A stretch of 24,933 nucleotides of DNA, taken from a virus. The position numbers and the translations under genes are program-made. Positions 2,056 to 9,192 of this stretch are shown here, one piece after another (position 1 is the stretch's first letter; every line of letters begins with the position of its first letter). The notes under the pieces were generated by a model, which was given only the letters and a program-made list of their open reading frames with translations, ran no database searches and had not been told where the DNA came from. The DNA lies in the IMG/VR virus record IMGVR_UViG_3300036406_000646, positions 1-24,933 of that record. One strand, written 5' to 3'.

Positions 2056-2949
2056 TTATTGTAATTCCAACCACTTTCTTAAATCTACCGTTGGTTTCCA
2101 ATGTAGATGAGTTTGAATCTTGGTTACATCAGCAAGAGTTTCCCAAGCTTCACCTTCTCGTTTAGAGACAAATGTAATATCATTGCCAATCATTCTTGCC
2201 AATTCAATTACAGAATGATTTATACCTGTTCCAACGTTTATTATCTCACCAACGATTTTCTTATTCTCTAAATTAGAGGCAAGAATATTTGCCTGAACGA
2301 TGTCTGATACGTGTGTGAAATCTCTTCTTTGTTCGCCATTTCCAACAACAGTCATTGGTTCTCCATTCCTAACTTGTTTCAGGAATCTACCAACAACAGG
2401 AGCATATTGTCCTTTCGTTGGTTCACGTTCACCATAGACGTTGAAGTATCTGAAGATTACGGTTTCCAATCCCCACATCGTGTGATATAACTTACAAAGG
2501 TCTTCGGCCGATTTCTTTGAAGCACAATATGAATTCAAACAATCTGTTGTCATATCTTCACGAAGTGGTGGTGTATTTTTTAGACCATAAGTAGAAGATG
2601 TAGAAGAATAAATAACACGTTTGATATTGTGTGTTCGTGAAGCTTCAAGAACATTACACGTACCGAGAACGTTTACTTCCACGGCCAGTCTTGGGTTGTT
2701 TATAATTGGTTGTATTCTAGCTTCTGCCGCAAGATGATATACAATGTGGACACCTTCAAAAAGTGGAAGTATAGATTGAAAATCTCGGATGTCAATGTGA
2801 TGATAGGTTGCTTTATCGTTGAAGTAAAACTGTTCATTGGATTCGGCTGACAAATTATCTATCACTATAACTTCATGTCCTTCGTCAATAAGACGGTCAA
2901 CTAAATTAGAACCAATAAAACCACAACCACCTGTAACTAAATGTTTCAT
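2056..2949 (-). CDS. NAD-dependent sugar-nucleotide epimerase/dehydratase
   Basis: This 297-residue protein is an extended short-chain dehydrogenase of the UDP-glucose 4-epimerase/dehydratase type. It shows the NAD-binding GxxGxxG motif (TGGCGFIGS, residues 6-14), an acidic residue ending beta-2 (VIDNLS), the HLAAEA segment, a serine-rich YSSTSSTYG strand and the catalytic YxxxK (Y141, K145). FRYFNVYGE and [10 protein letters not shown] are typical of the substrate-binding half. Length is close to the family's usual 300-330. The exact sugar cannot be told; a role in modifying host or virion glycans is an inference. GGAGA lies at a good distance from ATG 2949. The neighbouring tRNA array ends 21 bases upstream. 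Confidence 0.9.
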
Positions 2950-2970
2950 AACTTCTCCTATATTATTTTG

Positions 2971-3042
2971 TACAGCATACGGGAATTGAACCCGTGTTAC
3001 CGCCGTGAAAGGGCGGTGTCCTGACCCCTAGACGAATGCTGC
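2971..3042 (-). tRNA. tRNA-Glu(TTC)
   Basis: A full cloverleaf is visible: acceptor GCAGCAT with ATGCTGT, T-loop TTCAATT, and anticodon loop CTTTCAC between CCGCC and GGCGG. A73 is present; CCA is not encoded. Confidence 0.93.
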
Positions 3043-3049
3043 GTCTGTG

Positions 3050-3121
3050 AGCGGAAGACGAGACTCGAACTCGCAACCAACAGCTTGGAAGGCTGTGACT
3101 CTACCATTGAGTTACTTCCGC
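3050..3121 (-). tRNA. tRNA-Gly(TCC)
   Basis: Acceptor GCGGAAG pairs with CTTCCGC. The anticodon loop CTTCCAA lies in an ACAGC/GCTGT stem. T-arm loop is TTCGAGT; U73; no encoded CCA. Confidence 0.93.
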
Positions 3122-3127
3122 ATTGTG

Positions 3128-3209
3128 TACCCGAAGAGGGACTTGAACCCCCACGCATCTCTGCATCAGATCCTAAATCTGACGTGTATTCCAATTTCAC
3201 CATTCGGGC
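3128..3209 (-). tRNA. tRNA-Leu(TAG)
   Basis: This is a class II tRNA with a long variable arm. Acceptor GCCCGAA pairs with TTCGGGT, and the anticodon loop TTTAGGA lies in a TCAGA/TCTGA stem. A73 as expected for Leu. Confidence 0.92.
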
Positions 3210-3212
3210 ATT

Positions 3213-3297
3213 TGGCGGAGGAAGAGAGACTCGAACTCCCACAACCTTTCGGTCGGCTGTTTTCAAGACAGCTGCAATACCATTATGCGATTCCTCC
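3213..3297 (-). tRNA. tRNA-Ser(TGA), CCA encoded
   Basis: This is a class II tRNA with a long variable arm (CCGACCGAAAGG). Acceptor GGAGGAA pairs with TTCCTCC; G73 is followed by an encoded CCA. The anticodon loop CTTGAAA lies in GCTGT/ACAGC. Only this tRNA and tRNA-Ala carry CCA in this array. Confidence 0.93.
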
Positions 3298-3304
3298 ATT
3301 TGTG

Positions 3305-3377
3305 AGCCACTTATCGGAATTGAACCAATGACCTACTGATTACAAATCAGTTGCTCTACCAGCTGAGCTAAAGTGGC
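3305..3377 (-). tRNA. tRNA-Thr(TGT)
   Basis: Acceptor GCCACTT pairs with AAGTGGC; D-stem GCTC/GAGC; anticodon loop TTTGTAA in ACTGA/TCAGT; T-loop TTCAATT. No encoded CCA. Confidence 0.94.
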
Positions 3378-3381
3378 AAAC

Positions 3382-3455
3382 ACAATTCAGCGTAAAGAGT
3401 ACCCGTTGACTTTACATTCGTAGGAACGTTCAGATTTGCTTCCTAACTGAATTGT
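3382..3455 (-). ncRNA. Structured RNA element of tRNA size, three-way junction, unknown
   Basis: A 74-base stretch between tRNA-Pro and tRNA-Thr is not a tRNA but folds compactly. The ends pair over 9 bp (ACAATTCAG with CTGAATTGT). Inside are two hairpins, TAGGAA/TTCCTA (3421-3445) and GTAAAG/CTTTAC (3392-3415). No T-loop or anticodon arm is recognisable. Its size and place between tRNAs suggest a stable RNA released by tRNA processing, comparable in position to the unassigned stable RNAs of the T4 tRNA cluster. Function unknown. Confidence 0.5.
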
Positions 3456-3458
3456 TTG

Positions 3459-3532
3459 TAGGGGATGCGGGATTTGAACCCACGACCTCTCGCTCCCAAA
3501 GCGAGCGCTATACCGGACTAAGCCAATCCCCT
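3459..3532 (-). tRNA. tRNA-Pro(TGG), first copy
   Basis: Acceptor AGGGGAT pairs with ATCCCCT; anticodon loop TTTGGGA in CTCGC/GCGAG, with the G37 normal for tRNA-Pro; T-loop TTCAAAT. No encoded CCA. A second TGG tRNA lies at 7429-7502. Confidence 0.93.
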
Positions 3533-3540
3533 ATAAATAC

Positions 3541-3693
3541 CAAACATTGAATTACCCGTAACGGAGTCGAACCGTTCCCTGTCTCAATCATCACTGAGAC
3601 CGTGCGTCATATATCTTCTTTCCGGAGTGAAGATTCTGTTCAAGCCCACCGAGGTATGTCTACCATAAACACTCACGGGCAATTCAATGTTTG
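3541..3693 (-). ncRNA. tRNA-like structured RNA with 19-bp closing stem, unknown
   Basis: The ends of this 153-base segment form a 19-bp stem (3541-3559 with 3675-3693). The only non-Watson-Crick pair becomes G-U in the minus transcript but A-C in the plus transcript, which supports a minus-strand RNA. Inside on the 3' side is a T-arm-like hairpin (AACGG, loop TTCGACT, CCGTT). On the 5' side is a D-arm-like loop with GG (TGT, TTATGGTAG, ACA). In place of a normal anticodon arm are about 85 bases with two hairpins: ATCTTC/GAAGAT and GTCTCA/TGAGAC. A strong promoter (3706-3738) lies just upstream, so this is the first RNA of that transcript. It may be a tRNA-derived RNA or an interrupted tRNA. 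Confidence 0.5.
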
Positions 3694-3705
3694 ATTTTCA
3701 ATACA

Positions 3706-3738
3706 TACAATATACGAAATGTTTTTGACATTTCCAAA
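3706..3738 (-). promoter_or_regulatory. Promoter for the tRNA-like RNA and distal tRNA block
   Basis: TTTGGAAAT (3730-3738) and TATATTGTA (3706-3714) are separated by the standard spacing (17 bases between TTGGAA and TATATT). The predicted start near 3700 is just before the 19-bp stem at 3693. Confidence 0.7.
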
Positions 3739-3747
3739 TTGTTTTTG

Positions 3748-3818
3748 AGCTAGATGGTGGATTTGCACCACCGTATGAACTTTTGCAGAGTTCCGCCTGA
3801 CTACTCGACCAATCTAGC
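3748..3818 (-). tRNA. tRNA-Cys(GCA)
   Basis: Acceptor GCTAGAT pairs with ATCTAGC, U73 as usual for Cys; anticodon loop CTGCAAA in GAACT/AGTTC; T-arm GGTGG, loop TGCAAAT, CCACC. Confidence 0.92.
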
Positions 3819-3823
3819 GTTTG

Positions 3824-3896
3824 TCCGCCTTCCCCGACTTGAACGGGAATCACTGCGTTATCAGCACAGCATTCTAACCAATTGAACTAAAGGCGA
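3824..3896 (-). tRNA. tRNA-Ile(GAT)
   Basis: Acceptor TCGCCTT pairs with AAGGCGG; U8-A9 present; anticodon loop CTGATAA in CTGTG/CGCAG; T-loop TTCAAGT; A73. No encoded CCA. Confidence 0.92.
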
Positions 3897-3902
3897 TTGT
3901 TG

Positions 3903-3976
3903 CATAGGTGGTAGGACTTGAACCCACAACTGACCCAGTTTTGGAGACTGGCGCTCTACCATTGAGCTACACCCAT
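3903..3976 (-). tRNA. tRNA-Trp(CCA)
   Basis: Acceptor ATGGGTG pairs with CACCTAT; D-stem GCTC/GAGC; anticodon loop CTCCAAA in CCAGT/ACTGG; G73 as in bacterial tRNA-Trp. Its first ten bases overlap the 3' end of the homing endonuclease gene, whose TAG stop is formed by U8, A9 and G10 of this tRNA. Confidence 0.94.
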
Positions 3977-4638
3977 GTAAGATATTGTATCAATTCTTCT
4001 ACTTTTTTGGATATAAACTTTTTGTGGCTTGTAAAATCTTCAACCACAATAAGTTCGATACCTAACGTCTCGCACTCTTTTCGTTTGAGTGAATCCGAAT
4101 CTTGTATCTTATTCAATTTTCCATTCACATCTTTGTAGTGATATATCCCATTCCATTCTATGGCAACTTTCTGATTTGGAAAAAAGAAGTCAAGTTCTTT
4201 ACCCGATGGTAAAATCGTCCTATCATTTATTGTAAAAGTAAAACCAGCTTCTAAAAAGCGACTTTCTGCATAAATTTCTGCCTTACTTCTACTACCTCTT
4301 TGATTTGGATTTAGATGTATATTCCTACACGTAGTTGAACAGTATTTTCTTTTTTTATATTCACTAGGTATAAGTAATAACTCCTTACCACAAATACAAC
4401 ACACCCATAATTTTCTACGATTTAGTGAGTTTTGTTTCAACGACTGTATGGATTTTTCAGAGGCACCGTTGATTGTTGGAACAAGACGACCTTCTGTAAT
4501 AGCAGACTTTACAGATATTCTTATTTTTTCACGGGTTTCTGTTGAAATAGTTCTTCGGATATTATTATATGAAGCACTACAAGAACTCGAACAGAATTTT
4601 GGATTGATTGTATCAGTATCACAGTTTAGACATTTCAT
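3967..4638 (-). CDS. VSR-like homing endonuclease with two zinc fingers
   Basis: The 223-residue protein has two cysteine-pair zinc-finger-like segments near residues 3-25 (CLNC, then CSSSC) and 80-105 (CCIC, then CSTTC). They are followed by a very-short-patch-repair-like nuclease domain: SKAEIYAESRF, LDFFFPNQKVAIEWNG, and a late IELIVVEDF strand. This layout fits free-standing phage homing endonucleases of the VSR/EDxHD group. It sits inside the tRNA array, between tRNA-Trp and tRNA-Met, and its stop codon lies within tRNA-Trp, so insertion next to that tRNA is likely. GAGGAG precedes ATG 4638 and a TATTTATT late-type box lies 22 bases further up, as for T4 homing genes expressed late. Confidence 0.8.
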   Translation of the reverse strand: MKCLNCDTDTINPKFCSSSCSASYNNIRRTISTETREKIRISVKSAITEGRLVPTINGASEKSIQSLKQNSLNRRKLWVCCICGKELLLIPSEYKKRKYCSTTCRNIHLNPNQRGSRSKAEIYAESRFLEAGFTFTINDRTILPSGKELDFFFPNQKVAIEWNGIYHYKDVNGKLNKIQDSDSLKRKECETLGIELIVVEDFTSHKKFISKKVEELIQYLTWV

Positions 4639-4660
4639 AATTCAAACTCCTCTATGTCTA

Positions 4661-4668
4661 AATAAATA
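4661..4668 (-). promoter_or_regulatory. TATTTATT late-type box (variant)
   Basis: The minus strand reads CATATTTATTTAG about 22 bases before the homing endonuclease start. It differs in the last base from the nine TATTTATA boxes. Confidence 0.4.
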
Positions 4669-4710
4669 TGTACTTGAACCTCCAAAAAACAAGTTTGACA
4701 ATAAAAACTG

Positions 4711-4781
4711 TACCGATACGTGGAATCGAACCACGTTGTGTTCCTTATGAGAGAACTGTTCTACCATTGAACTATATCGGT
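4711..4781 (-). tRNA. tRNA-Met(CAT), elongator-type
   Basis: Acceptor ACCGATA pairs with TATCGGT; D-stem GTTC/GAAC; anticodon loop CTCATAA in GTTCT/GGAAC; T-loop TTCGATT. A1-U72 is paired and the anticodon stem lacks three G-C pairs, so it is not an initiator. A lysidine-modified tRNA-Ile cannot be excluded from sequence alone. Confidence 0.88.
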
Positions 4782-4785
4782 ATTG

Positions 4786-4860
4786 TATTCTTGGAAGGAC
4801 TCGAACCCTCAACCTTCTCGTTCGTAGCGAGACACTCTAATCCAGTTGAGCTACAAGAAC
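4786..4860 (-). tRNA. tRNA-Arg(ACG)
   Basis: Acceptor GTTCTTG pairs with CAAGAAT; D-stem GCTC/GAGT; anticodon loop CTACGAA in TCTCG/CGAGA; T-loop TTCGAGT. A34 implies inosine modification by a TadA-type enzyme. Confidence 0.93.
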
Positions 4861-4865
4861 ATTTG

Positions 4866-4938
4866 GGTGGCTAACGGGAATCGAACCCGTATCTACTCGG
4901 TCACAACGAGTGGTGTTTACCGTTACACCATAGTCACC
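4866..4938 (-). tRNA. tRNA-His(GTG)
   Basis: Acceptor GTGACTA pairs with TAGCCAC with one A-C mismatch. A G precedes position 1 and C73 is present, the His identity pair. Anticodon loop TTGTGAC in ACTCG/CGAGT; T-loop TTCGATT. Confidence 0.92.
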
Positions 4939-4945
4939 ATATAAG

Positions 4946-5018
4946 TTGTGGAGACAGGGCTCGAACCTGTACTTTTCTCGTTCAAAGCGAGATGCCTTAC
5001 CAATTTGGCCACTCCACA
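4946..5018 (-). tRNA. tRNA-Gln(TTG)
   Basis: Acceptor TGTGGAG pairs with CTCCACA; anticodon loop CTTTGAA in TCTCG/CGAGA; T-loop TTCGAGC; A73. It is the first tRNA after pseT. Confidence 0.93.
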
Positions 5019-5023
5019 GTATT

Positions 5024-5041
5024 GCCCGACTTTCATCGGGC
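5024..5041 (-). other. Hairpin between pseT and tRNA-Gln
   Basis: GCCCGA and TCGGGC pair around a 6-base loop in the 28 bases between the pseT stop and tRNA-Gln. No U-tract follows, so an RNA-processing or stability element is more likely than a terminator. Confidence 0.4.
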
Positions 5042-5046
5042 GTATT

Positions 5047-5898
5047 TCAGAAATCTCCCCAATCTACCTGCAAACACGTCAGTCCTAAATCGTTTCGCCA
5101 CATATCTACAACTTGGTCTCGGTCATCCAACACGAAGTCGATGTAAAACTTGTTACGAACATGAGTATCGAACAATTCACGTTTGACGATAGAATCTTTA
5201 CGCATATCGCCTTCTGGTCTCATGAACAAATGAAAGTGTGTCAAACGAACATTATCCTTCAACCATACCAACGTTTCTTCTCGGCAAACAGAATCACGTC
5301 CTGACATAAAGATGATGTTATGTGTAGTGGCAAACCTACGAACGATGTCAATAATTGGTGGATTTGGTTTGTCTTCACCAACTCTATCCCAATCAAAGGC
5401 ACCACGCCCATCCATCTTTGCAACAGTACCGTCGATGTCAACAATGATTGCTTGTACCAAAGACGTCTCTTGAATCATTGGAGTTACCTTTGGACGAATC
5501 CAATCGTTGAACATCTTACGAATAACACGTTCACCTACCGACCGAGTTCGTTTCAGGTCTCGTTCGATTGCAACATCAACGTCAATGTGAAACCACTTGA
5601 CTTCAACACTTGCTCCAAATTCCTTCCCAATCTCTCGAATACGGTCTTCGTGTTTTGGGTTCAAGTTTGTATCATCAACGATAATACTGAATCCTTCACC
5701 CAACCATTGACGAATGAGAGTATCACGGGTTTTCAGAATTTGACGTTCCATCTTACCAGACCAATCGCCACCTTGAACCATAGAACGCAAATCATCTTTG
5801 TTTACCCTCTTCCAATTCCGATTCAGTGCAACGAAGTCAGAGGCCCACGTTGACTTACCAGAAGCTGGAAGTCCTTTACACATTATGATTTTAGGCAT
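5047..5898 (-). CDS. pseT: T4-type polynucleotide 5'-kinase/3'-phosphatase
   Basis: The 283-residue protein has the T4 Pnkp layout. The N-terminal kinase has the P-loop GLPASGKST (residues 9-17) and an NKDDLR segment with the likely catalytic aspartate at 35. The C-terminal HAD phosphatase has DIDGT (D154, D156) and later MSGRD and DDRDQVVDMW. It phosphorylates 5'-OH ends and removes 3' phosphates and 2',3'-cyclic phosphates, preparing cleaved RNA for ligation. T4 Pnkp is about 301 residues, so this is full length. Its start overlaps the end of the upstream RNA ligase by 8 bases, implying coupled translation, and tRNAs follow directly. That fits tRNA repair after anticodon-nuclease cleavage. 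Confidence 0.95.
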   Translation of the reverse strand: MPKIIMCKGLPASGKSTWASDFVALNRNWKRVNKDDLRSMVQGGDWSGKMERQILKTRDTLIRQWLGEGFSIIVDDTNLNPKHEDRIREIGKEFGASVEVKWFHIDVDVAIERDLKRTRSVGERVIRKMFNDWIRPKVTPMIQETSLVQAIIVDIDGTVAKMDGRGAFDWDRVGEDKPNPPIIDIVRRFATTHNIIFMSGRDSVCREETLVWLKDNVRLTHFHLFMRPEGDMRKDSIVKRELFDTHVRNKFYIDFVLDDRDQVVDMWRNDLGLTCLQVDWGDF

Positions 5899-6997
5899 CG
5901 TCTCTATCCTTTTGATAAAATGGTTTTTGATATTGTGGACGAACCATGTCCCATATCATCTTTGAATAATCTTTACCATCCAACACTGAAAACAATATAG
6001 ACGATAGGTTCTTGTGGTTTTCCAGCAAGTACAACGCGATTTCTTTTCGTGTTGAATCTTTCATGTTGTACACGATGTGATTGTGAACACCACCAACAAC
6101 ACTCAAGATTTCGTCATACTTTTCTTGGAGACCCGAAATAATCTTGCTCACCCAATCGTAGAATTCGTCTGGAACGTTCTGTAAGATTTCTTCGAGTTCA
6201 TCTCCATTTTTCAGGGCTTCCCAAATAGAAACATTCGAGACGTTCGTCAGAATACGATGTAAACGCACATACTCATCAAGCTTTACCTTCATCGTGAATC
6301 CAGATGGATAGAATCGAACAACGTATCCTTCAAAGTTATTCTTATCATGTGACAAAAGTTCTTTAATATCAGATACATCGAAATACTCCACTGCTCTCAT
6401 TGAAGTTTCCTTTGATATTATTGAATCTTGTGATTGAATAATACCACCAGTTATATTTTCAACACCACCCAAGAAAATTAAACCTTCAAAATCACCATAG
6501 TCCACGACGATTCGATTATTTTTGTAAATAATCTCAAACAAGTATGTACATTGCCAGTTTTGAAATCGAATTAATACGTCCAATGGAGTTTGACCAAACT
6601 TATTTGTATTTTCACGTAACCAATTCGTTGCCCAAATTGCCTGATCGGAAGTGAATGAACCACGAGTAGCAATATAGACTTCATCATCTTCGCCAAGATA
6701 TGCAATACCCAACGAACCGTCTACCTTTTCCGATACTGTAAACTCTTCGTGCCACGGAATTTCCTTGTTGCTGTGTTCTTGAATGTTAAAGAACTTCTTG
6801 AAAGGACGAGAAATAATCTCACCATTACTATTCAAAATAAGTCCACGAGCTTGAATTGTTGCTTCATTCCACATCTTTTCAAACTGAGTGGTTTGGGTGT
6901 AGTTGTAGATATAGTAGTCAAAGGTGGGGTGTTTCTGTACGGAAACATAACCTTTTTCAACCATTTCTATCAGCAAATCATAGTGTTCGTATTTCAT
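5891..6997 (-). CDS. rnlA: T4 Rnl1-type RNA ligase
   Basis: The 368-residue protein matches T4 RNA ligase 1, which joins 3'-OH and 5'-phosphate RNA ends with ATP. Motif I is EKVDGS with the AMP-accepting lysine at 91 (K99 in T4). Motif III-like YLFEIIY, motif IV EGYVVRF and motif V MKVKLDEYVRLH follow, then a helical C-terminal domain like that of Rnl1, which contacts tRNA. AAGG lies 8 bases before ATG 6997. It overlaps pseT by 8 bases; in T4 the two genes are separate. It is probably the second half of a tRNA-repair operon. Confidence 0.95.
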   Translation of the reverse strand: MKYEHYDLLIEMVEKGYVSVQKHPTFDYYIYNYTQTTQFEKMWNEATIQARGLILNSNGEIISRPFKKFFNIQEHSNKEIPWHEEFTVSEKVDGSLGIAYLGEDDEVYIATRGSFTSDQAIWATNWLRENTNKFGQTPLDVLIRFQNWQCTYLFEIIYKNNRIVVDYGDFEGLIFLGGVENITGGIIQSQDSIISKETSMRAVEYFDVSDIKELLSHDKNNFEGYVVRFYPSGFTMKVKLDEYVRLHRILTNVSNVSIWEALKNGDELEEILQNVPDEFYDWVSKIISGLQEKYDEILSVVGGVHNHIVYNMKDSTRKEIALYLLENHKNLSSILFSVLDGKDYSKMIWDMVRPQYQKPFYQKDRDDA

Positions 6998-7007
6998 TTT
7001 GAAAACC

Positions 7008-7394
7008 TTAGAAAAGAAGTGATGAAGTTGCTAACAGAGTCAAGGCATGGATGAATTGGTCAAGACCCATGACCGCGAATGTGGCGTATTCTTGTTTGTT
7101 AGACCACAATCGTTTGACCTCACGTGATGTCAAAAAGTCGGTAATGAAGTGAAGAACAAAATTCACACCACCATAGATGAGAATACTTTGAATTTCAAAT
7201 CGGTTGGCAAAGTTTGTGAAGTTACCAATCATCAACATACCAATCAAAACGAGTGTGTATGTTCCAACGTGGTAAAACAACTGAATTGAATCTTCGTGTT
7301 TGTTGTTTCCTTGTTTACGCGTCTGACAAAGGTAATCTCCAATGTAGTGTGTAAACAAAATGAATACAACGAATGTTAGTGTAACCATATCCAT
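7008..7394 (-). CDS. DUF3307-like membrane protein
   Basis: The protein is about 128 residues with roughly four hydrophobic segments. THYIGDYLCQ near the start, HFITDFLTSR in the middle and GLDQFIH near the end recall DUF3307, a small membrane family found in phages and bacteria with no defined role. The start is chosen at ATG 7394, with GGAAAG seven bases upstream; ATG 7409 is possible. Any longer reading runs into tRNA-Pro at 7429-7502 and is not credible. It ends 10 bases before rnlA and probably shares its transcript. Confidence 0.75.
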   Translation of the reverse strand: MDMVTLTFVVFILFTHYIGDYLCQTRKQGNNKHEDSIQLFYHVGTYTLVLIGMLMIGNFTNFANRFEIQSILIYGGVNFVLHFITDFLTSREVKRLWSNKQEYATFAVMGLDQFIHALTLLATSSLLF

Positions 7395-7428
7395 AATCCA
7401 TCTTTCCATTTGTAAAACTGTTGTAAAG

Positions 7429-7502
7429 TCAGGGTGACAGGACTCGAACCTGCATATTCTTCGTTCCAAACGAAGCCCGTAACCAATTCCGGACACACCC
7501 TG
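7429..7502 (-). tRNA. tRNA-Pro(TGG), second copy
   Basis: Acceptor CAGGGTG pairs with CACCCTG, C1-G72 with A73, the usual Pro end. Anticodon loop TTTGGAA in CTTCG/CGAAG gives TGG. A37 replaces the G37 almost always found in tRNA-Pro. No encoded CCA. Confidence 0.87.
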
Positions 7503-7513
7503 ATAATTCAAAT

Positions 7514-7840
7514 TTATGAGGCAATTCCTTCATCCCACGAGTATGTATTCGGACCATCTTCGCCATTACAAAAGTCTGAAACAAATTGTAGATACTCGTC
7601 TGATGGGTTTCCAGTTACCACTCTGTATTCCAAACAGCCGTTATCCCATTTAGCAAGTTTAACTATAACAGGGGTGTTTTTCAACACTCTACATACTTGG
7701 TCTATTGCCCAAGCTTTGTGGTGTTCTCCATCTTCTTGTCCATAAGCCGCAAAATAAAGTGCCCAATCGGTTGTACCATAATTCGCAAATTTAGTATTGG
7801 AAAGGTCTTCGACCAAAGTTTCGCCCAAATACCCAGTCAT
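7514..7840 (-). CDS. Hypothetical protein, 108 residues
   Basis: I do not recognise this protein. It is acidic and soluble-looking, with tryptophans and histidines in the middle (GEHHKAWAIDQVCRVL) and an acidic end (NGEDGPNTYSWDEG). There is no signal peptide or membrane segment. ATG 7840 has AGGGTGA upstream. It sits alone between tRNA-Thr and the second tRNA-Pro, within the tRNA transcript. Confidence 0.7.
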   Translation of the reverse strand: MTGYLGETLVEDLSNTKFANYGTTDWALYFAAYGQEDGEHHKAWAIDQVCRVLKNTPVIVKLAKWDNGCLEYRVVTGNPSDEYLQFVSDFCNGEDGPNTYSWDEGIAS

Positions 7841-7874
7841 ATATCACCCTGTGTTTAGTGTTTATTTACATTTG

Positions 7875-7945
7875 CTTGGTATGTGGGAATCGAACCCACT
7901 ACTTCCGAGTTACCACTCGGACGCTTATCCAACTGCTCATACCAA
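7875..7945 (-). tRNA. tRNA-Thr(GGT), irregular anticodon loop
   Basis: Acceptor TTGGTAT pairs with ATACCAA and the T-arm GTGGG, loop TTCGATT, CCCAC is good. The D-stem is weak and U8 is replaced by G. The anticodon arm is TCCGA and TCGGA around an 8-base loop GTGGTAAC, or a 6-bp stem with a 6-base loop if the closing G and C pair. Reading U33 then GGT gives Thr. It could be degenerate. Confidence 0.65.
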
Positions 7946-8040
7946 AACACCGATAACAATTTGCCAGAACTGATAACGATGTGAACACAACAGAGATAAG
8001 AAGTTACTGGCATAACAGATTATACTCTGGCCGTGTTTTG
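7943..8040 (-). ncRNA. Structured RNA element between tRNA-Thr and tRNA-Asn, unknown
   Basis: The ends pair over 8 bp (CAAAACAC with GTGTTTTG). Inside are GCCAG/CTGGC (7963-7967 with 8007-8011), extended by AACT/AGTT, and CAGA/TCTG (8016-8029). No tRNA arms are recognisable. It is the third spacer of the array closed by its own end-to-end stem. Confidence 0.4.
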
Positions 8041-8112
8041 CTCACACGGTAGGACTCGAACCTACAACCAATCGGTTAACAGCCGAACGCTCCACCATTG
8101 AGCTACGTGTGA
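8041..8112 (-). tRNA. tRNA-Asn(GTT)
   Basis: Acceptor TCACACG pairs with CGTGTGA; D-stem GCTC/GAGC; anticodon loop CTGTTAA in TTCGG/CCGAT; T-loop TTCGAGT; G73 as in tRNA-Asn. Confidence 0.94.
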
Positions 8113-8119
8113 ATGATTG

Positions 8120-8192
8120 TTGCGGAGGTGAGATTCGAACTCACGATCTTCGGGTTATGAGCCCGACGGGTTAGCCACTTCCCTACCCCGCG
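8120..8192 (-). tRNA. Initiator-type tRNA-fMet(CAT)
   Basis: Anticodon loop CTCATAA. Two initiator hallmarks are present: an unpaired C1 and A72 at the acceptor end (CGCGGGG with CTCCGCA) and three consecutive G-C pairs closing the anticodon stem (TCGGG/CCCGA). T-arm GTGAG, loop TTCGAAT, CTCAC. The unpaired 1-72 end is needed for formylation, so this tRNA is predicted to start translation. Confidence 0.92.
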
Positions 8193-8199
8193 ATGTTTG

Positions 8200-8271
8200 T
8201 GCCGAAACGTGGAATCGAACCACGGCTACCAGTGCTTCAAACTGGCGCTCTACCAACTGAGCTATCTCGGC
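8200..8271 (-). tRNA. tRNA-Phe(GAA)
   Basis: Acceptor GCCGAGA pairs with TTTCGGC; D-stem GCTC/GAGC; anticodon loop TTGAAGC in CCAGT/ACTGG; T-loop TTCGATT; A73. Confidence 0.92.
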
Positions 8272-8275
8272 ATTA

Positions 8276-8350
8276 TGGTGGACCAGGAGGGAATCGAACC
8301 CTCAATTCAGGTTTGCAAAACCCGTGTGTTCCCGTTAGCACTACCAGCCC
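8276..8350 (-). tRNA. tRNA-Ala(TGC), CCA encoded
   Basis: Acceptor GGGCTGG pairs with CTGGTCC and includes the G3-U70 wobble pair that identifies tRNA-Ala. Anticodon loop TTTGCAA in CGGGT/ACCTG; A73 followed by an encoded CCA. Confidence 0.93.
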
Positions 8351-8359
8351 ATAATTTTG

Positions 8360-8443
8360 TGCCGCGTGTAGGATTCGCACCTACTCATCTGAATAGAATC
8401 GGTTTTACAGACCGATGTGCCTCTCTAACTGCACCGACGCGGC
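8360..8443 (-). tRNA. tRNA-Tyr(GTA)
   Basis: This is a class II tRNA with a long variable arm. Acceptor GCCGCGT pairs with ACGCGGC; anticodon loop CTGTAAA in TCGGT/ACCGA; T-loop TGCGAAT. It is the first tRNA after the promoter at 8490-8521. Confidence 0.92.
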
Positions 8444-8489
8444 TTGGCGTAATAAGTTTTCAATGAACGTCCTTCCGAAGAAGGAGACA

Positions 8490-8521
8490 CAAACCTATGG
8501 AATTTTTCCGATATATCCAAA
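8490..8521 (-). promoter_or_regulatory. Promoter of the main tRNA transcript
   Basis: TTTGGATAT (8513-8521) and TAGGTTTG (8490-8497) have the standard spacing and match the DNA ligase promoter closely, including GGAAAAATTCC in the spacer. It drives tRNA-Tyr and downstream tRNAs. Confidence 0.7.
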
Positions 8522-8545
8522 TTAATTTTTTGTCATAATTTGGAT
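8515..8545. repeat. 10-bp inverted repeat over the tRNA promoter -35
   Basis: ATCCAAATTA (8515-8524) and TAATTTGGAT (8536-8545) are perfect inverted copies separated by 11 bases. One copy covers the -35 box, so this could be an operator or a second, outward-facing -35. Confidence 0.45.
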
Positions 8546-8552
8546 TTTCACC

Positions 8553-8579
8553 GTAAGTCTTTGAAATCAAAGGACTTAC
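8553..8579 (-). other. GTAAGTCC-type hairpin
   Basis: GTAAGTCTTTG pairs with CAAAGGACTTAC with one bulged base around a tiny loop. It shares its stem sequence with the hairpins at 1383 and 8601 and lies beside the DnaA box. Confidence 0.45.
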
Positions 8580-8583
8580 AAAG

Positions 8584-8592
8584 TTATCCACA
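8584..8592 (+). promoter_or_regulatory. Consensus DnaA box TTATCCACA, second copy
   Basis: The perfect box lies inside AAGTTATCCACATA, identical over 14 bases to the copy at 1368-1376 but in the opposite orientation. It lies between two hairpins. Confidence 0.5.
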
Positions 8593-8593
8593 T

Positions 8594-8632
8594 AAACAAA
8601 AAGGACTTACAAGTTTTATCCTGTAAGTCCTT
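8594..8632 (-). terminator. Rho-independent-type terminator of the 46-residue gene
   Basis: On the minus strand AAGGACTTACA and TGTAAGTCCTT form an 11-bp stem with a 10-base loop, followed by TTTGTTT. It lies just downstream of the small gene ending at 8655 and upstream of the tRNA promoter. Confidence 0.7.
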
Positions 8633-8654
8633 CTGAACTGGTGTGTCTTTTTGA

Positions 8655-8795
8655 TTAGGTCATAGACAACTTACAGGATTTTGATGTTGGGAGATACTCA
8701 CTATTAAATGTGATACCACAAAAAATGGCTCCTTTGCGAGTGACTTGTTGTGTCATCGCCGGATATGATTGCCATGTATGTAGTGAGTTGTTCAT
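8655..8795 (-). CDS. Small protein, 46 residues
   Basis: This short reading frame starts with MNNSLHTWQSYPAMTQQVTR and contains KGAIFCGITFNSEYLP. I do not recognise it. It is supported by context: its own promoter (8850-8882), an AGGAAA ribosome site 5 bases before ATG 8795, and a terminator 23 bases after the stop. No membrane segment or signal peptide is seen. It stands alone between the tRNA promoter and the next gene, so it is a compact early/middle gene of unknown role. Confidence 0.6.
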   Translation of the reverse strand: MNNSLHTWQSYPAMTQQVTRKGAIFCGITFNSEYLPTSKSCKLSMT

Positions 8796-8849
8796 CGAAT
8801 TTCCTGTCCTAAAAGTTATGTCTAAATCCATTCTATATCAATAAGTATG

Positions 8850-8882
8850 TACAATATACTAAAAAGATTCCACAATTCCAAA
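8850..8882 (-). promoter_or_regulatory. Promoter of the 46-residue gene
   Basis: TTTGGAATT (8874-8882) and TATATTGTA (8850-8858), 17 bases between the TTGGAA and TATATT hexamers. Confidence 0.65.
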
Positions 8883-8892
8883 TTTATTTTTC

Positions 8893-9192
8893 TTACCGAA
8901 TAAAATTATCTACTTTATCATACATCTTCTTTGTTTTCCAACCGTAGTTAAATACAAACCAACCTGCAACTTCCTTTGCAATATACTTTGGTTCACGGAA
9001 TGTCTTTACATATTCGTCAATGAACCACTTTGTAAAATCAACATCTTCTTCAAGAGTCCATTCACGTTTAGTAAACCAATAAGGTTGTTGAGCGAACTCT
9101 TCGTCATATCCTTCAAATCCAACACGACGGAACATTTCGTCAAGTGCTTTCATTTGAAATTCGTCAATTTTCTTTTGTTTTCTCGGTGTCAT
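8893..9192 (-). CDS. Hypothetical protein, 99 residues
   Basis: The protein is unrecognised. It starts MTPRKQKKIDEFQMKALDEM and has aromatic stretches (QQPYWFTKREW, EVAGWFVFNYGWKT). It is charged and probably soluble. Start ATG 9192 is chosen because the longer reading upstream covers the promoter at 9219-9250. The ribosome site is weak. It is a single-gene transcript under an early/middle-type promoter. Confidence 0.7.
   Translation of the reverse strand: MTPRKQKKIDEFQMKALDEMFRRVGFEGYDEEFAQQPYWFTKREWTLEEDVDFTKWFIDEYVKTFREPKYIAKEVAGWFVFNYGWKTKKMYDKVDNFIR

Follow-up and report, generated by a model that had tools for sequence, protein, structure and literature searches.

Small stable RNAs and extended acceptor helices in phage tRNA clusters

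The tRNA cluster of phage T4 encodes two small stable RNAs, rnaC (species 1 RNA, 139 nt) and rnaD (species 2 RNA), which have been validated by Northern blotting and whose function was described as yet unknown (RNAC and RNAD in PMC9697503). The rnaC/rnaD stretch is kept in hundreds of T4-like genomes, and rnaC itself is 97–99% conserved in T6, RB3 and DalCa. When folded, rnaC is closed by an acceptor-like stem and shows a perfect T-arm (CCGGG-UUCGAAU-CCCGG) with a hairpin directly 5′ of it; the middle is of unrelated sequence. To our knowledge, both RNAs still lack a function although they have been known for decades.

Acceptor helices of unusual length occur in KVP40-like Vibrio phages, which carry two elements per genome (e1 and e2) with acceptor helices of 20–22 bp that are annotated as tRNA-OTHER or left unannotated. 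In Vibrio phage phi-pp2, our scanner found two elements whose acceptor helices are extended by 13–14 bp and which are annotated only as tRNA-OTHER. Across 16 distinct e1/e2 sequences, the structure was 99.2% paired, with changes on both sides in 30 of the 40 pairs compared with 14.5 in shuffles, so that the pairing is maintained by compensatory change. In the extended helix, it is the pairing that is conserved and not the sequence.

An oversized tRNA-like RNA in a viral tRNA array

We analyzed IMG/VR record IMGVR_UViG_3300036406_000646, a virus record of 24,933 bases whose full length is referred to as the window. Its minus strand has 20 tRNA genes, and this array is adjoined by genes for a T4-type polynucleotide kinase/phosphatase (Pnkp, 5047–5898) and a T4-type RNA ligase 1 (Rnl1, 5891–6997). 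A predicted oversized tRNA-like RNA, hereafter RNA1, and its promoter have the following features:

3709–3737, minus strand: promoter, TTGGAA (3737–3732), 17 nt, TATATT (3714–3709); start expected about 8–9 nt before RNA1
3541–3693, minus strand: RNA1, oversized tRNA-like RNA, 153 nt
3682–3693, minus strand: 5′ strand of the 12-bp acceptor-helix extension, CAAACATTGAAT
3675–3681, minus strand: acceptor-like 5′ strand, TGCCCGT
3656–3672, minus strand: D-arm-like hairpin, GTGT-TTATGGTAG-ACAT (ensemble probability only about 0.3)
3577–3655, minus strand: foreign middle of 79 nt, replacing the anticodon arm
3613–3634, minus strand: middle hairpin 1, ATCTTC-ACTCCGGAAA-GAAGAT (pair probability 0.83–0.92)
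3581–3600, minus strand: middle hairpin 2, GTCTCA-GTGATGAT-TGAGAC, directly before the T-arm (pair probability 0.99–1.0)
3560–3576, minus strand: T-arm, AACGG-TTCGACT-CCGTT (ensemble probability 0.3–0.56)
3553–3559, minus strand: acceptor-like 3′ strand, ACGGGTA, which holds the G-U partner
3541–3552, minus strand: 3′ strand of the 12-bp acceptor-helix extension, ATTCAATGTTTG

Read along the minus strand from 3693 to 3541, RNA1 is CAAACATTGAAT-TGCCCGT-GA-GTGT-TTATGGTAG-ACAT-(79 nt)-AACGG-TTCGACT-CCGTT-ACGGGTA-ATTCAATGTTTG. As the original prediction had proposed, its ends close in a 19-bp helix (3541–3559 with 3675–3693) of 18 Watson–Crick pairs and one G-U pair; the latter would be an A-C mismatch on the plus strand, so that the single wobble pair indeed favors the minus-strand RNA. 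The T-arm-like hairpin (3576–3560, minus strand) and the D-arm-like loop (3672–3656, minus strand) were likewise found. As RNA, the T-arm is AACGG-UUCGACU-CCGUU, with a loop that fits TTCRANY, and adjoins the acceptor strand (ACGGGUA) without a gap, giving RNA1 the tRNA (RF00005) trait of a TTCRANY T-arm against the acceptor stem. The D-arm-like hairpin is GUGU-UUAUGGUAG-ACAU, with GG in its loop. The anticodon arm is absent, and the foreign middle that was said to take its place is present, at 79 nt rather than about 85 nt. Asp, Lys and Val tRNAs, whose lack had been brought up in the same context, are absent from the window as claimed; as the record is a fragment of only 24.9 kb, we left this argument out of account. 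No ORF fits a protein-coding reading of the RNA1 locus.

Folding stability and chance expectation

The whole of RNA1 folded at −55.1 kcal/mol (z = −4.7), and none of 200 shuffles was as good. The 115-nt interior left after removal of the closing helix was not unusually stable compared with shuffles (z = +0.56); in these predicted folds, the excess stability of RNA1 comes only from the closing helix. Within the Boltzmann ensemble, the middle hairpins were firm (0.83–1.0), and the T-stem (0.3–0.56) and D-stem (about 0.3) were only partly populated because GGGCUUGAAC in the middle can pair with GUUCGACUCC of the T-arm. Since the stability signal is uneven in this way, the tRNA likeness of RNA1 rests on geometry, namely the consensus-loop T-arm exactly at the acceptor, the distance of the D-arm and the extension.

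A geometric scan for an acceptor stem with D-arm and T-arm, a span of at least 100 and an extension of at least 5 bp gave 0 matches in 2.8 million strand-bases of shuffled sequence. Among the ordinary tRNAs of the arrays examined (about 136), the contiguous extension was at most 3 bp. The closing structure of RNA1 is thereby confirmed as real, with a geometry far beyond chance.

Comparison with T4 rnaC and the Vibrio phage elements

Judged by its architecture, rnaC would be the closest experimentally known relative in kind to RNA1. The two are of similar length, lie in phage tRNA clusters that also hold a homing endonuclease gene, and have a hairpin directly before the T-arm; RNA1 thus shows what characterizes the rnaC type, a T-arm and an acceptor-like stem around a foreign middle within a phage tRNA cluster. 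However, a D-arm is present only in RNA1, whose closing stem runs for 19 continuous bp; that of rnaC is short and interrupted. Moreover, the production of rnaC is proven and its conservation genus-wide, neither of which holds for RNA1. A blastn search of RNA1 against 50,697 phage records gave no match to the T4 tRNA cluster and no sequence homology to rnaC.

The e1/e2 elements resemble RNA1 in their acceptor extension of 13–15 bp, their D-arm and T-arm, a 45–50 nt insert in the anticodon arm and their position in a tRNA cluster. RNA1 shows a combination of features that marks these Vibrio elements, an acceptor extension of more than 10 bp (12–14 bp in RNA1) together with a D-arm and a T-arm. 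A covariance model of e1/e2 run against window positions 2900–8900 placed it at the top with 35.2 bits over its full length, a small lead over the ordinary tRNAs (at most 32.5 bits) that was obtained with the insert skipped and unaligned. The inserts themselves differ: that of e1/e2 consists of a hairpin, 4 nt and CNGCA between the halves of an anticodon stem, and RNA1 has neither. The pairing of e1/e2 is also backed by covariation, whereas that of RNA1 rests on one sequence.

We tentatively read RNA1 as a small stable RNA built on a tRNA scaffold and broadly comparable in kind to T4 rnaC, an interpretation to which we give slightly less than an even chance. The earlier idea of a tRNA mimic gains support from the anatomy of RNA1, from the null scan and from the parallels in T4 rnaC and the two elements per genome of KVP40-like phages. 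The stable-RNA reading further draws on the recurrent promoter motif next to RNA1, on its first rank in the e1/e2 model and on the lack of a fitting ORF. Weighing against it are the ordinary interior (z = +0.56), the partial T- and D-stems, the small lead in the e1/e2 model and the broken copy in a relative described below.

Relatives of RNA1 and its promoter context

By its ribonucleotide reductase, the nearest isolated relative was Microcystis phage Mel-JY01 (69%), in which 41.8 kb of genome were scanned and held no extended-stem tRNA-like element. Protein and DNA-pattern searches led back to the same phage and to a single close relative, L003. Hunts through viral and genome contigs with exact patterns of the 5′ part, hairpin 1 and the T-arm/acceptor revealed no intact relative of RNA1, the matches being the same phage, the broken L003 copy, an ordinary tRNA-Glu (L135), a site in an Alistipes genome that is not a tRNA, and chance matches. 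Nor did 79 Rnl1-bearing viral loci (1.35 Mb) hold an extended-stem element anywhere except in the same phage. The Pnkp of L003 is 90% identical to that of the window and its Rnl1 63% (window 5891–6997, L003 8926–10005), and these identities suggest that the ligase gene was replaced by recombination.

In L003, the −10 region is retained together with the beginning of RNA1, 42 nt in all at 95% identity. Beyond this point the sequences part, and L003 has lost the T-arm, the 3′ strand and tRNA-Pro but keeps the operon. The original prediction had named loss of pairing in related phages as a refuting result, and in the sole relative found the pairing is indeed lost. As the 5′ strand is left without a partner in L003, the comparison suggests a loss in L003 rather than a gain in the window phage. 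Because L003 lost the T-arm and the 3′ strand, RNA1 is at least dispensable or lineage-specific. We also considered and rejected a mobile DNA element, as the inverted repeat flanks a single copy in the record and L003 has no clean empty site.

Such losses would agree with RNA1 being a relic, a former tRNA gene now in decay after an insertion into its anticodon arm and with no function of its own. The missing anticodon arm, the still greater damage to the L003 copy and an interior without exceptional stability could all be explained in this way, as could the presence of the exact RNA1 T-arm and 3′ acceptor sequence in the ordinary phage tRNA-Glu (L135). However, a perfect 12-bp extension, an intact T-arm and a D-arm are unexpected in a decaying gene, and the extension is both the least tRNA-like and the best-paired part of RNA1. 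We regard a relic as rather unlikely.

The promoter-like site ends 15 nt upstream of RNA1. Its bare sigma-70 match of 9/12 is not significant alone; it is credible because variants of a longer motif, TTTGGAAATGTCA...TTTCGTATATTG, recur upstream of other units of the window (at 8881, 9231, 17918 and 20660). The claim that RNA1 is the first RNA after a promoter thus holds, and it is followed by tRNA-Pro, a structured spacer termed RNA2 (3378–3457) and further tRNAs. This order is also what one would see if the locus served the tRNA operon as its leader or as a processing hairpin, with tRNA-like parts left over from a tRNA gene and a 19-bp helix acting in cis, either as a shield for the 5′ end of the polycistronic precursor of the tRNAs or as a site for a double-strand nuclease. 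All of the excess stability lies in the closing helix, and L003 retains exactly the promoter-proximal part, which further agrees with a leader. Yet a leader would not need a canonical T-arm at the acceptor, the L003 operon persists although the 3′ strand is lost, and RNA2, on the same transcript, has a closing stem too. A leader is, in our estimation, unlikely; both it and the decaying relic nevertheless remain serious alternatives to the stable-RNA reading.

Tests against introns, tmRNA and nuclease decoys

RNA1 had no match to RF00005 in Rfam, either at the gathering score or at E ≤ 10, and no ARAGORN call; with introns allowed, ARAGORN called it with a partly mismatched anticodon stem. An interrupted tRNA had been among the original suggestions, and we scored every possible excision. 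The best (ARAGORN score 112.8) had a non-canonical anticodon loop and was equalled by 6 of 60 shuffled inserts, so that no excision did better than shuffled inserts in restoring an anticodon stem, and a spliced tRNA was rejected as not significant.

Inserts that do have a common core occur in the Vibrio elements and also in the environmental contigs L053 and L054; here a 5-bp hairpin is followed by exactly 4 nt and CNGCA. Run over the complete KVP40 genome, a 25-position model of this core (R2) matched at five sites, each within an oversized tRNA; a further 1.16 Mb of DNA from other phages gave no significant match. At 3541–3693 it gave no match even at E ≤ 10 with filters off; by eye there is only a loose resemblance (hairpin, 5 nt, ACGCA), and we rejected membership of the RNA1 insert in this Vibrio-phage family. 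Once its insert is excised, KVP40 2906–3017 (L034) becomes a perfect tRNA-Asn(GUU).

An intron-bearing tRNA of the KVP40-like kind, from which the insert is excised and whose exons are sealed by the neighboring Pnkp and Rnl1, would account for the overall plan common to RNA1 and the Vibrio elements and for the position of both genes (5047–5898 and 5891–6997) next to the array. We consider it improbable, as R2, which marks this family almost without false matches, is absent at E up to 10, and as the best excision is no better than shuffled inserts (6/60). With the Vibrio insert motif missing as well, the suggestion of an interrupted tRNA was not borne out.

Phage tRNAs with group I introns (for example L003 13943–14247) are, like RNA1, interrupted in the anticodon arm within an array; the RNA1 insert, however, is 79 nt long and has no group I match in Rfam, and this class was rejected since the RF00028 core was not found. 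Similarly, tmRNA and other tRNA-like domains have a T-arm and an acceptor around a non-tRNA middle, but RNA1 is far too short and has no tag reading frame. A tmRNA (RF00023) was called by neither ARAGORN nor Rfam, with just a 17-nt T-arm fragment at 5 bits, and was likewise rejected.

A decoy for anticodon nucleases, also raised originally, now appears unlikely: the anticodon nuclease PrrC reads the anticodon stem-loop (PMC3014915), and the absence of this arm from RNA1 makes it the least likely version of a decoy. Defense enzymes directed at tRNAs could instead read the tRNA elbow or the acceptor end, and a decoy for these might keep the T- and D-arm and lose the anticodon arm, as is the case for RNA1. 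Phage tRNAs are known to counter tRNA-cutting defenses (PMC10264068; PMC11555353). However, the need of anticodon nucleases for the anticodon stem-loop, as in PrrC (PMC3014915), and the expectation that a 19-bp helix without a CCA end would be no normal substrate for tail cutters make such a decoy highly improbable. Like the intron-bearing tRNA, the nuclease decoy is a weak alternative.

Proposed mode of action and wider class

If RNA1 is such a tRNA-scaffolded small stable RNA, its own phage promoter would make it the first unit of the transcript, before tRNA-Pro and the other tRNAs of the array. Together with the 19-bp acceptor helix, the T-arm and D-arm would give a tRNA-like end in which the two termini are held shut and shielded. 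A helix of this length should prevent RNase P/CCA maturation of the ordinary type as well as aminoacylation, and a double-strand nuclease may trim it. The 79-nt middle with its two firm hairpins would then be a payload that touches an RNA or protein target during infection. We infer that RNA1 accumulates, that its ends are processed as proposed and that its middle is functional.

More broadly, unrelated large phages might independently use a tRNA end (T-arm, D-arm and acceptor) lengthened to a 19–22 bp helix as a protective clamp for a small RNA payload, which takes the place of the anticodon arm or divides it. RNA1, e1/e2 and, in reduced form, T4 rnaC would then make up one unrecognized class of phage regulatory or anti-defense RNAs, which we see as possible but doubtful. 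Engineered tRNA scaffolds are used to stabilize foreign RNAs; were the clamp-plus-payload plan general, it would be their natural counterpart, and some of the 'pseudo-tRNAs' annotated in phages would be functional RNAs. RNA1 and the covarying Vibrio clamps could serve as comparative material on what rnaC/rnaD-like RNAs do. As a mere relic, or as a leader of the operon, RNA1 would be ordinary.

Other features of the tRNA arrays

RNA2 (3378–3457, minus strand) separates tRNA-Pro from tRNA-Thr and is a structured spacer closed by a 10-bp stem. In L003 it has 96.7% identity over 90 nt, a conservation equal to that of the better tRNAs, and it is possibly a second small RNA. The spacer between tRNA-Asn and a tRNA of undetermined type (RNA3, 7946–8039, minus strand) folds into two long hairpins and is 90–91% conserved in L003. 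A tRNA at 7874–7945 (minus strand) has a non-canonical anticodon loop and was typed '???' by ARAGORN (31 bits in Rfam); the syntenic gene of L003 was called Ser(tga). The interrupted tRNA at L003 13943–14247 carries a group I intron (RF00028, 79.8 bits); its exons, joined by eye, could give CUUUUAA and thus Lys(UUU), and the ARAGORN call was Ser.

Two protein-coding genes on the minus strand of the window were also recorded. An HNH/homing endonuclease gene (3967–4638) with tRNA-Met and tRNA-Trp on either side is missing in L003, where both tRNAs are adjacent, and is a free-standing endonuclease insertion. A small protein encoded at 1404–2015 matched Pfam S-AdoMet_lyase with 41.6 bits (cut-off 28), a type of phage anti-restriction enzyme.

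KVP40-like Vibrio phages and the two environmental contigs, which measure 148 and 208 kb, have oversized tRNA genes with anticodon-arm inserts of roughly 40–60 nt, at the following places:

L034, 2906–3017 and 4572–5442: insert-bearing oversized tRNAs
L027, 1409–2279: insert-bearing oversized tRNAs
L036–L046: insert-bearing oversized tRNAs
L053, 30–420: insert-bearing oversized tRNAs
L054, 936–1326 and 6439–6851: insert-bearing oversized tRNAs

Some of these genes have been termed pseudo forms in the literature. Judged by sequence, the inserts look like small phage introns in tRNA genes, of a family not described before. In the Vibrio phages L042, L043, L045 and L046, a gene annotated as 'RNA ligase' or 'RNA ligase/cyclic nucleotide phosphodiesterase' lies close upstream of the insert-bearing tRNAs, and its product could contribute to sealing or to end healing. 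One insert-bearing tRNA, at L054 1066–1192, was called with the anticodon TTA (tRNA-Stop in ARAGORN); it may be a suppressor, or the call may stem from wrongly chosen splice sites.
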